Below, piece after piece: positions 30,272 to 63,875 of a stretch of 64,000 bases of DNA (position 1 is the first letter of the stretch; the number at the start of each line of letters is the position of its first letter). The stretch covers positions 21,866 through 85,865 of the forward strand of contig JAGAFU010000059.1 of assembly GCA_017627955.1 (NCBI GenBank), in the 5' to 3' direction. The notes under the pieces are model-generated. The model made no database searches. It was not told the DNA's origin and saw only the letters and a list, made by a program, of their open reading frames with translations. Source of the DNA: Bacteroidales bacterium (GTDB lineage Bacteria > Bacteroidota > Bacteroidia > Bacteroidales > UBA932). A program made the position numbers and the translations under genes.

Positions 30272-32290
30272 TCAGAACTGGAAGTAGATGAAGGATTGCA
30301 GATCAGCGGTAATGAACTGACAGATGATGAAGATAGCGATCATGCAGGCAAAGACCATCAGCGCAAGAGGCATCTTGGCGAACCAGATACGGTACCTCCT
30401 CTTGAAGTTCTCCGGAAGCCAGTGAATCAGCATTCCTATCACAAACACCAGGATGATGCTCCTGTGCTGCCATGCCATCTGCGGCACCAGGGACCAGTCC
30501 CACTGCCCTCCGATCTGGTTAACCATGTTCTTGGCCGTACTCCAGGCCTTCTCATTCGCCTCCGCTGGATCAAGATTGGATCCGCTGCGGAAGAAAAGCC
30601 TGGTGAAAGTGATGAATATGAAGGTCATCAGCACGGCCCACGCGTCGCTGATCCAACTGACGGCCTTCCCCTTCCTGACCTTATGGAAAAGCATCCCGAC
30701 GAAGGCGCCAAGGAGAATGATCACGGTCCACCAGAAGAACATATTGAACACCGGAGCTCCGAAATAATACTTCAAAGCCCCAAAAGCGGCGACGGTGGAT
30801 CCGATCACAAGCACTTTGAAATAAGCGTTGCAGCTCGCCCAGAAACGGTAGATGAGCATTCCGAGGCCGTTGAGGCCGCCCCAGATCATGAAATTCCAGC
30901 TGGCTCCGTGCCAGAGTCCTCCAAGAAGCATGGTGTCCATCCTGTTGATGTCCGAGATGAGCTCCTTGCGCCAGGATTTCTTGAAAGCTATCAGTAAAGC
31001 CACTATGACCGTAAGAACCAGGACACTCCCGAAGACCCACCAGCTTCCGGCCAGGGCGGAAGCCAGGAAAGCTATTCCAAGGATGATCGCATAAGAGCCG
31101 AAAGTGCCGTTGCGGTTGCCTCCAAGCGGGATGTAGAGATAGTCCTGCAGCCACTTGGATAGGGATATGTGCCACCTCTTCCAGAACTCTCCCGCGTTTC
31201 TGGCCTTGTAGGGAGAGTTGAAGTTCTTCGGAAGATAGAAGCCCATCAGCATCGCCACACCTGTAGCGATGTCAGTGTAACCGGAGAAGTCCGCATAGAC
31301 TTGCAAGGAATATCCGAACAGGGCGGTGAGGTTCTCGAAACCGGTGTAAAGAAGCGGGTTCTCGAAGACGCGGTCGCAGAAGTTAACTGCAAGGTAGTCG
31401 CTCAGGATCAGCTTCTTGGCAAGTCCGTTAAGGATCCAGAACACAGCAAAACCGAACTGGGTGCGGCCAAGGAAGAAGGGCTTGTGGAGCTGGGGGATGA
31501 ATTCCTTAGCCCTGACGATCGGTCCGGCGACAAGTTGGGGGAAGAAACTCAGGTAGAAGCCGAAGTCCAGGAAGTTCCGCACGGGCTCGATGCCGCCTTT
31601 GTATTTATTCGGCCCTTCGGCTCCGCTCAGGGACCGGGATGGTGCACTCTCGGACTTGTCATCAGCGGCAGAGGACTGCCGGCGAGCATTTTCCCGGATA
31701 GGGCGCGAAGCGCAGCGAGACGGCGGTAGCTCTGCCGCTGATGCTACTCCTCTGGAGACATCTACGACATAGCTGATGGCCTGGAAGATGAAGAAGGAGA
31801 TACCGACCGGAAGAAATATCGAATCGACGCTGAAAGCTCCGGAACCGACCACAGAGTTGCCCCATGAAGCGATCCAATCCTTCACGACGAACGAAGTGCC
31901 GAACAAATTATTCAGAACATCTGTGATGAAATAGGCGTACTTGTAATAGCACAGGAGCGACAGGTCGACGACTATACTCGTGACCACCACGAAATTCCTC
32001 CAGAACTTTCGCTTGCAATGAGGTAAAACCAAGCCAGCCAGATAGTTATAGACTATTACAAAGCCAAGGAGCATCAAGAACAACCCGCTGGTCTTGTAGT
32101 AGAAGAAAAGGCTCACGAAGAACAGGAAGGCGTTCCGCAGCAGGGTTTTGTTCTTGAACACGCAAAGGAACGCGAGCACAATGGCGAAGAACGCCCAGAA
32201 ATAGAACTGGGTGAACAGCAGCGGATGGGCCTGGTCAAAAGCGAACAGGTCCTTCAGAAACTGCAGCGACACTTCTTTCAAACCGGCCAT
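30272..32290 (-). CDS. MBOAT-family membrane O-acyltransferase (AlgI/PatA-like) with repeat-derived insert
   Basis: The 672-residue polytopic protein should carry acyl groups across the inner membrane for O-acetylation of a polysaccharide or cell-wall polymer. MBOAT marks are SYVVDVSRG, FYLSFFPQLVAGPIVRAKEFI, FWKRWHISLSKWLQDYLYIPLGG and LLGGLWHGASW with the catalytic His (about 462). Between SYVVDVSRG and GIEPVRNFLDFGFY the protein carries about 45 extra, hydrophilic residues that are translated repeats (31611-31639 and 31661-31742). The family normally joins these blocks with a short loop. The two SGNH proteins directly upstream would act as the periplasmic acyl-transfer step. Its start overlaps the upstream gene by 13 bp. 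Confidence 0.88.
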   Translation of the reverse strand: MAGLKEVSLQFLKDLFAFDQAHPLLFTQFYFWAFFAIVLAFLCVFKNKTLLRNAFLFFVSLFFYYKTSGLFLMLLGFVIVYNYLAGLVLPHCKRKFWRNFVVVTSIVVDLSLLCYYKYAYFITDVLNNLFGTSFVVKDWIASWGNSVVGSGAFSVDSIFLPVGISFFIFQAISYVVDVSRGVASAAELPPSRCASRPIRENARRQSSAADDKSESAPSRSLSGAEGPNKYKGGIEPVRNFLDFGFYLSFFPQLVAGPIVRAKEFIPQLHKPFFLGRTQFGFAVFWILNGLAKKLILSDYLAVNFCDRVFENPLLYTGFENLTALFGYSLQVYADFSGYTDIATGVAMLMGFYLPKNFNSPYKARNAGEFWKRWHISLSKWLQDYLYIPLGGNRNGTFGSYAIILGIAFLASALAGSWWVFGSVLVLTVIVALLIAFKKSWRKELISDINRMDTMLLGGLWHGASWNFMIWGGLNGLGMLIYRFWASCNAYFKVLVIGSTVAAFGALKYYFGAPVFNMFFWWTVIILLGAFVGMLFHKVRKGKAVSWISDAWAVLMTFIFITFTRLFFRSGSNLDPAEANEKAWSTAKNMVNQIGGQWDWSLVPQMAWQHRSIILVFVIGMLIHWLPENFKRRYRIWFAKMPLALMVFACMIAIFIICQFITADLQSFIYFQF
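31611..31639. repeat. GGTCCCTGAGCG-type repeat inside the MBOAT gene
   Basis: GGCCCTTCGGCTCCGCTCAG followed by GGACCGGGA is the reverse complement of the GGTCCCTGAGCGGAGCCGAA unit also seen at 61267. It is translated as SRSLSGAEGP, about residues 218-227. Confidence 0.85.
31661..31742. repeat. Long hairpin element (conserved loop, self-complementary arms), MBOAT copy
   Basis: Perfect 13-bp arms ATCAGCGGCAGAG (31661-31673) and CTCTGCCGCTGAT (31730-31742) enclose a 56-bp loop containing CCCGGATAGGGCGCGAAGCG (from 31693). The loop aligns with that of the aroB element (59305-59391), whose arms are unrelated. It encodes part of the insert in the MBOAT protein. Confidence 0.8.
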
Positions 32291-59213: not shown

Positions 59214-60356
59214 TTGATTATAAAATCGGCAAAATTGAGCAACTTAATAAACATTGTGCATTGCGCTATTTCGGAGGTCGGGAAACGCTTGAAGGTGTTG
59301 CATTCCGGCGTTGAGGGAGTCACTACCGCCGACCATTTACCCGGACAGGGCGCAAAGCGCAGGGAGGCGGAGGGAGCTCCCTCAACGCCGGCACATCAGC
59401 TATTCATTGTGTGCGACCGGAATGTCAGGGCTATGGTGGAAATGATTGGTACTGAGGCGGATGGCGTATTCGAGCTGGATGCCAACGAGGAGAACAAGAC
59501 TTTTGGGACAGTTGTCGAAATAGAGCGCTGGCTGATGGACAGCGGAGCCGACCGGAACGCCATTCTGCTTGGAATAGGCGGAGGAATAACCACGGACATC
59601 ACAGGGTTCACCGCCTCAATCTACAAAAGAGGAATACGCTTCGCTTTCGTGCCGACTACGCTTCTGTCCCAGGTCGATGCCGCCATCGGAGGCAAGAACG
59701 GGGTAAACCTCGACTCCTTCAAGAATATGATCGGCGTGATCCGCCAGCCGGAGGCTGTGTTTATATGCCCGGAACCACTTGAGACTCTGCCATATCCGCA
59801 GATTGTGAGCGGAGCCGCCGAATTATTGAAGACCTTTATTATCGACAACTCCAAAGGCCTTTACGACATGGCAGTGGAAACCCTCTCGGGAATCCGTCGG
59901 GCCGGAGGGAATATCACCGGATATTCAGAAAAGCTCAACGACTTGATCGCTGAGGCAGCCCTGATCAAAGCAGGAATAGCCGGCCGCGATCCTTACGAGA
60001 AAGGCGAGCGCAGGCTTCTGAATCTCGGGCACACTTTCGCCCATGCCATCGAGAAGCTCTCCCGGGAGAAGATATCCCATGGAGAGGCGGTCTCGGTCGG
60101 GATGATTCTCGCCGCCCGGCTCGCTGGAAAGGTCGGCATCGCTAATAAGGCCCTTGAGAGCCGCCTGAAAGCTGATTTCAAGGCTTGCGGGATGGCGATT
60201 GACTGTCCTTTCTCAGTCAGCGAGATGACCAGCGCCATGGCGAAAGACAAAAAAGCGGAAGGAAGTATCATTCATTATATTTTGCCTGCGGAGATCGGCC
60301 ATGTCCTCGTTGAGGATATGACTCCAGCCGAGGCGACAAGACTTCTACAGGAATAA
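59214..60356 (+). CDS. aroB: 3-dehydroquinate synthase with in-frame hairpin insert, TTG start
   Basis: The 380-residue enzyme converts DAHP to 3-dehydroquinate in the shikimate pathway. NAD/metal features: GIGGGITTDITGFTASIYKRGI, FVPTTLLSQVDAAIGGKNGVN, VSGAAELLKTFII (metal Glu), LLNLGHTFAHAIEKLS and ISHGEAVSVGM (metal His). The only plausible start is TTG 59214, preceded in frame by TAA 59211-59213; the next in-frame ATG is well inside the fold. Between residues 31 and 60 the sequence (EGVTTADHLPGQGAKRREAEG) is encoded by an 87-bp hairpin element at 59305-59391 and has no counterpart in the family. The true N-terminal strand resumes at HQLFIVCDRNV. Catalytic residues are downstream, so activity may be kept. 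Confidence 0.88.
   Translation: MIIKSAKLSNLINIVHCAISEVGKRLKVLHSGVEGVTTADHLPGQGAKRREAEGAPSTPAHQLFIVCDRNVRAMVEMIGTEADGVFELDANEENKTFGTVVEIERWLMDSGADRNAILLGIGGGITTDITGFTASIYKRGIRFAFVPTTLLSQVDAAIGGKNGVNLDSFKNMIGVIRQPEAVFICPEPLETLPYPQIVSGAAELLKTFIIDNSKGLYDMAVETLSGIRRAGGNITGYSEKLNDLIAEAALIKAGIAGRDPYEKGERRLLNLGHTFAHAIEKLSREKISHGEAVSVGMILAARLAGKVGIANKALESRLKADFKACGMAIDCPFSVSEMTSAMAKDKKAEGSIIHYILPAEIGHVLVEDMTPAEATRLLQE
59305..59391. repeat. Long hairpin element (conserved loop, self-complementary arms), aroB copy
   Basis: Perfect 15-bp arms CCGGCGTTGAGGGAG (59305-59319) and CTCCCTCAACGCCGG (59377-59391) enclose a 57-bp loop containing CCCGGACAGGGCGCAAAGCG (from 59340). Loop positions match the MBOAT element, but the arms are unrelated in sequence. 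Confidence 0.82.
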
Positions 60357-62663: not shown

Positions 62664-62775
62664 CCGTGATTTGTAAGGGTTTGATTTATTGTAATATAAG
62701 CCAAAGCCATCCTGCTGAAATGACAGGATGGCTTTTATGTTAAGCATTGATAATCAACCATTTCCAAATCACGGG
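62664..62775. repeat. Composite palindrome flanking the transposase, left copy
   Basis: CCGTGATTTG (62664-62673) and CAAATCACGG (62765-62774) form an outer 10-bp inverted repeat. Inside it AAAGCCATCC (62703-62712) pairs with GGATGGCTTT (62726-62735), followed by TAT. The inner hairpin may also terminate transcription from the aro genes. Confidence 0.85.
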
Positions 62776-62832: not shown

Positions 62833-63750
62833 ATGAGATTCAGAAAGAACAAATTCTACCGGGAAGGTGCTTTTCACCATCTTTACATCAAGGCCAAGAA
62901 TGGAAATGTCATTTTTTACAGGATTGAGGACTATCTCTTTATCTACACGTTAGCCAGCGTTTTAAGCAGAAGGCACAAGGTGATCGTCGAGTTGTTCTGC
63001 GTCATATTCAACCACCTTCACGGCTGCGTCAAGGCGCGGACTCAAGGTGTCTTCAGAGCCTTCCTACGTGACTTATCATCCTTGTTCACTGTTGGTTACA
63101 ACGAGGAGTACCACCTGACAGGATCTCTTCTTTTGCCTTGCGGATACGCCCCGAAGGTTTCTGCCAAAACCCATAAGACTTGTCTTATCTATATTGCCAA
63201 TAATCCTTCAACCGGACGGTTAGTCAAATCTGTCCTGGACTATAAGTGGGGACTTGTCCCATATTTCTTCTCAGACCACCCGTTTTCCGAGAAACTTGTC
63301 AAGAGAAATGCCCGGTTTGCCATGAGACAAGCGTTGTCGATTGTTGACGGATGCAAGCGTAGAGGCCAACACTTGAATTACCCTATCCTCAGAAAGATCT
63401 TCAAAAAGTTGAATTCCAGGGAAAAAGCACAAATTGTTGACTACATAATAATCAAATACTTTTTCCTGGACAAGCAATCTTTCTTCTCCCATTTCGAAAG
63501 TGAAGAGAAAGCGCTGGTGGCGATGGATTCGTCAGCGGGGTCGGAACACGACCTTTATGAACCGTGGGAAGATTATTCTGTCTATCTTGAAATGATCCGC
63601 GCTACTCTTTCTTCAGGTTTGGACTATAAGATGTTCCGCTTTCATCAGATGCCTGCGGATCAACTGAACATTCTTCGTAACAAGTTGTCCGGACTTCCTG
63701 GAGTGACTAAGATACACATTGAAAGATTCCTGCATCTGAACGAGCCGTGA
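62833..63750 (+). CDS. REP-associated tyrosine transposase (Y1_Tnp, RAYT)
   Basis: The 305-residue protein starts at ATG 62833 (MRFRKNKFYREGAFHHLYIK), after a palindromic region. Y1_Tnp marks: IFYRIEDYLFIYTLA, then CVIFNHLHGCVKA with the HUH-type His pair (in place of PNHVH), VGYNEEYHLTG (candidate catalytic Tyr region) and IYIANNPSTGRLVKSV (in place of YIHLNPVRAGLV). This class cuts single-stranded palindromic DNA and is thought to spread REP sequences. The C-terminal helical extension (about 175-300; KFLNSREKAQIVDYIIIKYFF-type) is longer than in E. coli TnpA-REP. Its TGA stop (63748-63750) lies inside the right palindrome. Confidence 0.88.
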   Translation: MRFRKNKFYREGAFHHLYIKAKNGNVIFYRIEDYLFIYTLASVLSRRHKVIVELFCVIFNHLHGCVKARTQGVFRAFLRDLSSLFTVGYNEEYHLTGSLLLPCGYAPKVSAKTHKTCLIYIANNPSTGRLVKSVLDYKWGLVPYFFSDHPFSEKLVKRNARFAMRQALSIVDGCKRRGQHLNYPILRKIFKKLNSREKAQIVDYIIIKYFFLDKQSFFSHFESEEKALVAMDSSAGSEHDLYEPWEDYSVYLEMIRATLSSGLDYKMFRFHQMPADQLNILRNKLSGLPGVTKIHIERFLHLNEP

Positions 63751-63855
63751 TTTGGAAATAGTTGAATATCAACTAAAAACGAGAAATCCATCCCCTCATT
63801 TCGGCGGGATGGCTTTCGTATAATCATTTGTAAATTAATTGTTTCCAAATCACGG
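63745..63855. repeat. Composite palindrome flanking the transposase, right copy
   Basis: CCGTGATTTGGAAA (63745-63758) pairs with TTTCCAAATCACGG (63842-63855), a perfect 14-bp inverted repeat. Inside lie AGTTGAATATCAACT (63760-63774) and CCATCCC/GGGATGG (63788-63812) followed by CTTTCG. The layout matches the left copy. Confidence 0.88.
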
Positions 63856-63875
63856 GACGTGTATCGTCCTGAAAA

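Follow-up and report, generated by a model that had tools for sequence, protein, structure and literature searches.

Dispersed hairpins with a constant tip and varying but complementary stems in some gut Bacteroidales

The window analyzed here, a stretch of 64 kb of DNA from a Bacteroidales genome, contains two copies of a hairpin element of the tip type termed class I below. The first lies in aroB, the gene for 3-dehydroquinate synthase (ORF 59214-60356, forward strand, confirmed by Pfam), which probably starts at the TTG at 59235, as judged from the protein of the relative G042. The element (59305-59391, forward strand) has a length of 87 nt, equivalent to 29 codons, and is in frame. It is composed of the left outer arm CCGGCGTTGAGGGAG (59305-59319), the left inner stem CCGCC (59326-59330), a conserved tip with a neck of the type GACC/GGGA (59331-59365), the right inner stem GGCGG (59366-59370), and the right outer arm CTCCCTCAACGCCGG (59377-59391), all given for the forward strand. 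The tip reads GGACAGGG instead of the GGATAGGG of most other copies, and this variant avoids an in-frame TAG. The inner stem CCGCC also borders the reversed tip in the relatives G090 and G146. Folded as single-stranded DNA, the aroB copy reaches -31.2 kcal/mol, versus -15.0 (sd 2.5) for shuffled sequences (z -6.4). The second copy (31660-31743, forward strand) is situated in an ORF on the reverse strand (30272-32290), putatively an MBOAT-type gene, a name taken from an earlier note on this DNA. Its tip (31684-31718, forward strand) has a neck of the type GAGC/GCGA and runs antisense to the gene.

The earlier note had described the aroB arms as perfectly paired over 15 bp with 57 nt between them, the loops of both copies as alignable in spite of different arms, and both copies as being in frame. 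All of this was confirmed, and each copy lies in one long ORF. The arms of the MBOAT copy are perfectly paired, as had been stated, but they extend one base further at each end than reported, resulting in arms of 14 bp (31660-31673 and 31730-31743) that enclose 56 nt. Within the window alone, a shorter core pattern is weakly above chance, with 2 matches at up to 2 mismatches, a number that 7 of 100 shuffles reach. The window also contains two imperfect inverted repeats (62664-62774 and 63740-63860) with a common CCGTGATTTG / CAAATCACGG end and a GGATGGCTTT motif nearby, apparently representing a second palindromic family. A separate dispersed repeat near TGTCATCCTGAGCGAAGCGAAGGATCTC is found beside the hairpins L002, L006, L012, L014, and L022, and beside some of their counterparts in G042; it is also read in frame (CHPERSEGS, VILSEAKDL) and can contain GCGAAGC.

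The genome-wide search for the loop core that the earlier note had proposed found it 25 times in the 2.58-Mb genome when up to 3 mismatches were allowed, versus 0 for a reversed control, which is far beyond chance. Of these matches, L025 looks like a chance match, and L023 has little of a right arm. L017 and L018 (G000:C40:6560-6665) are one element in a tandem partial duplication, of which L017 is one half. When 21 copies were used to train a covariance model, it found 24 matches in the same genome. Among eight relatives, which were picked via an aroB search in 250 genomes, the number of model matches was 29 in G146, 26 in G090, 16 in G188, 13 in G049, 3 in G072, 2 in G042, 1 in G211, and 0 in G017. 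Under strict filters, by which weak matches are lost, matches were obtained in 13 of 61 genomes of the genus sample (the own genome included, 48 without a match), in 3 of 149 genomes of the family sample (the own genome, G090, and one genome of another genus with 2 weak matches), and in 1 of 295 genomes of the order sample, the own genome. The tip pattern is present in at least 116 named stretches; the 80 that were listed are all metagenome-assembled genomes of Bacteroidales or Bacteroidia, many of them of ruminant origin. The earlier analysis of tip classes took in 80 of the 116 stretches; a recount of all 116 among the matches listed gave 58 copies of class I and 59 of class II. Carriage by phages was considered and rejected, as viral contigs did not contain any exact match to the tip pattern. 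No report of this hairpin family was found among the matches listed for the open-access literature, a collection mostly outside the subscription journals. In brief, these are dispersed hairpins of about 85 nt that are scattered by the dozens in the genomes of some gut Bacteroidales.

Each hairpin consists of a stem of about 22 bp and a conserved tip of about 35 nt. The class I tip reads approximately GA-SC-ATTTW-CCCGGATAGGG-CGC-GNA-GCG-CA-GS-GA. Three types of neck dominate the 128 class I copies, GAGC/GCGA (48), GACC/GGGA (43), and GGAC/GGGA (28), in addition to nine single variants, and the first two types were never found to be crossed. The neck could form a two-base-pair step beside purines, for which G.A pairs are conceivable, followed by the mini-hairpin CGC-GNA-GCG. 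In DNA, loops of the GNA type have an exceptional stability. The class I stem often has a one-base bulge on its 3' side, and beyond the stem the information content is near zero on both sides (128 copies). The second tip class, class II, reads ATTTNCCCGNACAGGGTCGCGAAGCGAC, and its mini-hairpin is invariant among 27 aligned copies. The idea that the stems of different copies are unrelated had to be given up: there is a weak family-wide consensus (about GGCGGCAAGACCGCCCCTGGC), and subfamilies exist that share their stems, e.g., L003/L006/L012. This indicates that stems are copied along as the element spreads.

The covariance test that had been suggested revealed a very strong covariation of the stems. 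In an alignment of 21 class I copies 84 cells were changed on both sides, versus 30.0 after shuffling, a value reached in 0 of 500 shuffles; both sides have changed in 12 of the 14 pairs of helix 1, and the signal is lost when the partners are slid against one another. In the 27 aligned class II copies, 97.8% of the cells are paired, all 19 of 19 stem pairs have been changed on both sides, and 162 double-changed cells are found versus 44.2 after shuffling. The first class I alignment comprised 22 of the 25 matches of the own genome (excluding L017, L023, and L025), while L021 was also excluded from the second alignment and from the covariance model (21 of 25). The class II alignment comprised 27 of 41 copies, i.e., the 31 with the canonical ACG after the tip minus L306, L314, L354, and L365. 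The earlier note was right insofar as the element recurs with a constant loop and differing and yet complementary stems, with copies that are mostly in frame.

Comparison of the same insertion site in different species gave 82 site pairs. The tip points the same way in 49 of them and opposite ways in 33; 8 of the 82 involve the chimeric hairpin L133 (5 same, 3 flipped). The agreement drops with divergence, from 9 same versus 1 opposite at flank identities of at least 86% (one of the 9 same pairs involves L133) to 10 versus 10 at 68-76%. The pairs with L133 were excluded from the compensation counts, the neck types, the list of 30 flipped pairs, and the figures for tip and arm divergence. L133 itself (G049; L359 reads the same) has a left half that resembles the L013 site and a right half that resembles the dsbD site, by recombination at the tip or by an assembly error. 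At another site (L005, around 1500, and L128) the own genome contains one full element and the right half of a second. G188 has the reverse combination, with the second element complete and the first represented by its right half, which looks as if each genome had retained a different member of a former pair.

In the 32 of 49 same-orientation pairs whose stems can be aligned, 44 Watson-Crick compensations were observed among 682 base pairs, versus a mean of 14.7 and a maximum of 25 after shuffling, and 22 of the 32 pairs have at least one. Furthermore, 49 one-sided changes break the pairing, 29 give G.T, and 11 two-sided changes remain unpaired. The compensation counts comprise pairs with a stem similarity above the 95th percentile of the null distribution (32 of 49 same-orientation and 14 of 33 flipped pairs), which favors conserved stems, and related pairs were counted separately, which makes the p-values too small. 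At ccmA, the elements of the own genome and of G188 differ at one pair only, which is G-C in one and A-T in the other. The stems of flipped pairs are also more similar than those of non-orthologous pairs (p about 3e-8, for pairs that are not independent). The outer stem is recognizable in the flipped pairs L001/L135, L263/L287, and L118/L279, the first two of which contain compensated changes; L001/L135 share the outer stem GAGG(C/A)GGCAAGG. The stem bulge switches side together with the tip in flipped pairs, as predicted for an inversion between the outer arms, but the independent insertion of a family member would give the same result. The combination of compensated changes with an inversion of the spacer between inverted arms is the pattern of template switching, which would be the underlying process.

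Opposite orientations at one site might alternatively be explained by independent insertions into common hot spots, without any inversion. The stem similarity of 18 of the 33 flipped pairs is not above the 95th percentile of the null distribution, and the flips at dsbD look unrelated in stem, as would be expected. However, 9 of the 30 usable flipped pairs, L001/L135 among them, exceed the 99th percentile, and the agreement in orientation drops with divergence, so that we regard this explanation as unlikely.

The tip is far more constant than the stem. At orthologous sites with a flank identity of 70-80% the tip differs by 7.3% (36 pairs) and the arm by 29% (16 pairs), and among the copies within the own genome the values are 11% and 57%, respectively, with a downward bias for the tip because detection was based on the tip (up to 3 mismatches). 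Selection for structure, one of the two readings of the earlier note, would be one explanation: each copy could function as an RNA or single-stranded DNA structure, and selection at each site would hold the stem paired and the tip constant. The low divergence of the tip, the distinct neck types, the first two of which are uncrossed, and the invariant mini-hairpin of class II are in agreement with such a function. If it were exerted in the mRNA, wobble pairs should be enriched on the mRNA strand. This was not observed, as G.U and A.C mismatches numbered 21 versus 39 in class I (ten innermost pairs, in copies where 7 or more of the 10 are paired) and 18 versus 24 in class II (58 of 59 copies, best-pairing register), which argues against selection on mRNA hairpins. 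Because, in addition, 0 Rfam matches at the gathering score were found in the window, an RNA element acting in the mRNA was rejected. On the tip strand, G.T versus A.C mismatches are even in class I (37 versus 30), but lean toward G.T in class II (35 versus 19, p 0.04), which leaves room for a role of the tip strand; the one-sided changes at same-orientation sites gave 19 G.T versus 10 A.C on that strand.

The genomic context provides additional arguments. Class I copies reside in ORFs of at least 200 aa at a frequency similar to that of random windows taken from these loci (107 of 128 versus 1810 of 2205), and both orientations of the tip relative to the gene occur (59 and 48, with 21 copies outside of long ORFs). 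Six reading frames are used, five commonly and the sixth rarely (8, 19, 21, 30, 27, and 2 copies). The two frames in which the common tip contains a stop codon are represented by 10 of 107 copies, all of which have another base at that position, which is partly a consequence of the ORF definition. The random-like frequency in ORFs, the two orientations, and the lack of a match in most genomes of the genus sample and in the near relative G017 speak against a function at each site. Selection for structure retains the constancy of the tip and the class II lean on its side, and as an explanation of the family it is rather unlikely.

The second reading of the earlier note was that one arm is built by inverting local host sequence during insertion. 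It was evaluated at 70 sites, drawn from the own genome, G188, G090, and G146, for which the corresponding site in G042 was compared. G042 has the tip at 5 sites, neither the tip nor a 10-bp hairpin at 63, and a tip-less hairpin, judged to be unrelated, at 2; a hairpin of the class I/II family with a degraded tip was not detected at any of the 70 sites by the test used. Of the 65 sites without a tip in G042, 21 differ in length by 72-90 nt, 20 by more, and 24 by less, some of the latter being even shorter than in G042; in 59 of the 65 the difference is a multiple of 3. Hence 41 of 65 sites are longer by at least the 72 nt that a whole hairpin needs. At ccmA, lysA, and MBOAT both arms are extra relative to G042, which fits an insertion of the whole hairpin; not all sites are so clean, and other repeats are also present at these sites. 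No target-site duplication, as would be typical of a MITE, was noticed in the insertion-site alignments, which were read by eye.

Some sites are candidates for a host-derived arm. At aroB, the left arm mirrors with its outer 10 nt the stretch TCAACGCCGG of the right arm, and this right arm can be aligned with TCAACGCTGG in the linker of G211. The linker has an equal length in three relatives, which would favor a host origin of the arm, with deletion scars being possible as well. The right arm at tilS matches ASPSTGSTS of G042, and that of L120 matches G042 over about 16 nt. The proposal is supported by the alignment of one arm with a tip-less relative at these three sites and by the 24 of 65 sites that gain less than a whole hairpin or lose length. 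It is not supported as a rule, since the majority of sites gain at least 72 nt, both arms are extra at ccmA, lysA, and MBOAT, and stems are common to unrelated sites. Furthermore, an element at tilS and L120 is also found in other species, so that the state of G042 may be a deletion scar. As an explanation of the family, an insertion that generates one arm from the host sequence is improbable, and at the three candidate sites it may have taken place. At the site of L015, the tip-less relative (L168, in G042) has a short palindrome CCGGTGG-TCTTCCCG-CCACCGG, perhaps a deletion scar.

It is very doubtful that the hairpins are ordinary REP elements mobilized by RAYT/Y1 transposases: the own genome has 6 Y1_Tnp matches, such matches also occur in 11 of the 12 other genomes tested, and some REPs share the bulge of the class I stems, but the hairpin stems are longer than REP stems, a conserved GTAG/CGTC tag or any conserved base outside of the stem is absent from the 128 class I copies, the Y1 matches do not track the number of elements in the 13 genomes (G017 has 0 elements and 3 Y1 matches), and the six Y1 genes of the own genome (L026-L031) have no tip, at up to 5 substitutions, within the surrounding 2-3 kb.

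The comparison of sites fits better with arms that are re-matched after insertion by template switching than with either of the two readings of the earlier note. The family itself, the covariation, the compensated changes at one site, and the flipped tip directions between copies that share a site and a conserved stem were observed; template switching is what we infer as their cause. We consider it somewhat more probable than its negation that the hairpin is a non-autonomous palindromic element whose arms are kept matched, and whose center is inverted, by template switching during replication. A palindrome of about 85 nt would have been dispersed in Bacteroidales to numerous sites within genes and to some outside of genes, usually inserting as a whole hairpin, and in-frame copies would be tolerated. 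Template switching between the inverted arms would copy a mutation in one arm into its partner, and the stem could thereby drift in sequence and yet remain near-perfect. Occasionally it would invert the segment between the outer arms, leading to opposite directions of the tip in different species. In the published cases, template switching between short inverted repeats has been reported to homogenize arms and to invert spacers, coding DNA included (available parts of PMC8604942), and to create and maintain hairpins (available parts of PMC8794818). A site-specific invertase was judged to be unlikely as the cause of the flips, by inference from the arms, which differ between sites.

The tip, with its mini-hairpin and purine neck, would be conserved through recognition by a putative factor during the spread; a search for Y1 enzymes in 13 genomes did not reveal a mobilizing enzyme. 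Several observations speak against this explanation. The tip diverges far less than the arm in spite of several frames and both orientations, and its conservation at orthologous sites is predicted neither by template switching nor by selection that acts only during spread. In addition, the sizes of the sites vary widely, 18 of the 33 flipped pairs do not exceed the 95th percentile in stem similarity, and some changes in same-orientation pairs break the pairing or leave it unpaired. The lean toward G.T in class II and among the one-sided changes would result if selection acted on a single strand derived from the tip strand. A more speculative version, which we offer tentatively, is a mobile DNA defined by a folded tip and any perfect stem: the single-stranded tip would be recognized by a putative factor and remain constant site by site, the stem would be free to change due to re-matching by template switching, and the center could be inverted without a site-specific recombinase.

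A strongly covarying stem commonly counts as proof that an RNA is functional. The Bacteroidales hairpins would be a large natural case in which covariation, at up to 19 of 19 pairs, may stem mainly from a mutational process of DNA. If true, this would call for caution in the discovery of RNAs, and the hairpins could serve as a natural reporter of the rates of template switching and inversion in bacteria.

Several known systems have features in common with these hairpins. REP elements of the GTAG and CGTC superfamilies, as characterized in the available parts of PMC3733652, have stems of 5-13 bp, loops of up to 20 bp, and a terminal tag. They are likewise dispersed palindromes, have subfamilies with alternative complementary stem bases, are in part intragenic, and the CGTC type is known from Bacteroidetes (PMC3733652), whereas the Bacteroidales hairpin has a stem of about 22 bp, a structured tip of about 35 nt, and no tag that we could see. 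Template-switch mutation at quasi-palindromes shares the homogenization of arms and the inversion of the spacer; the cases in the available parts of the respective papers are native repeats of yeast genes and RNA genes (PMC8604942, PMC8794818), in contrast to the dispersed bacterial family at many sites described here. The repetitive hairpins and palindromes of organelles (sponge mitochondria, Volvox), known to us from partial descriptions, are also dispersed. In behavior, the hairpins resemble the Rickettsia palindromic elements, which according to the available parts of PMC10969869 have about 150 bp and comprise ten families, each with a conserved peptide. Like these, the hairpins are short palindromes in unrelated protein-coding genes, often in frame; compared by description, they differ in their length of about 85 nt, in the use of several frames without a common peptide, and in the phylum (PMC10969869), so that membership fails on size and common peptide. 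A further difference is that covariation at one site and inversion have been demonstrated for the Bacteroidales hairpin. The family adds a Bacteroidales case to the palindromes of protein-coding genes.
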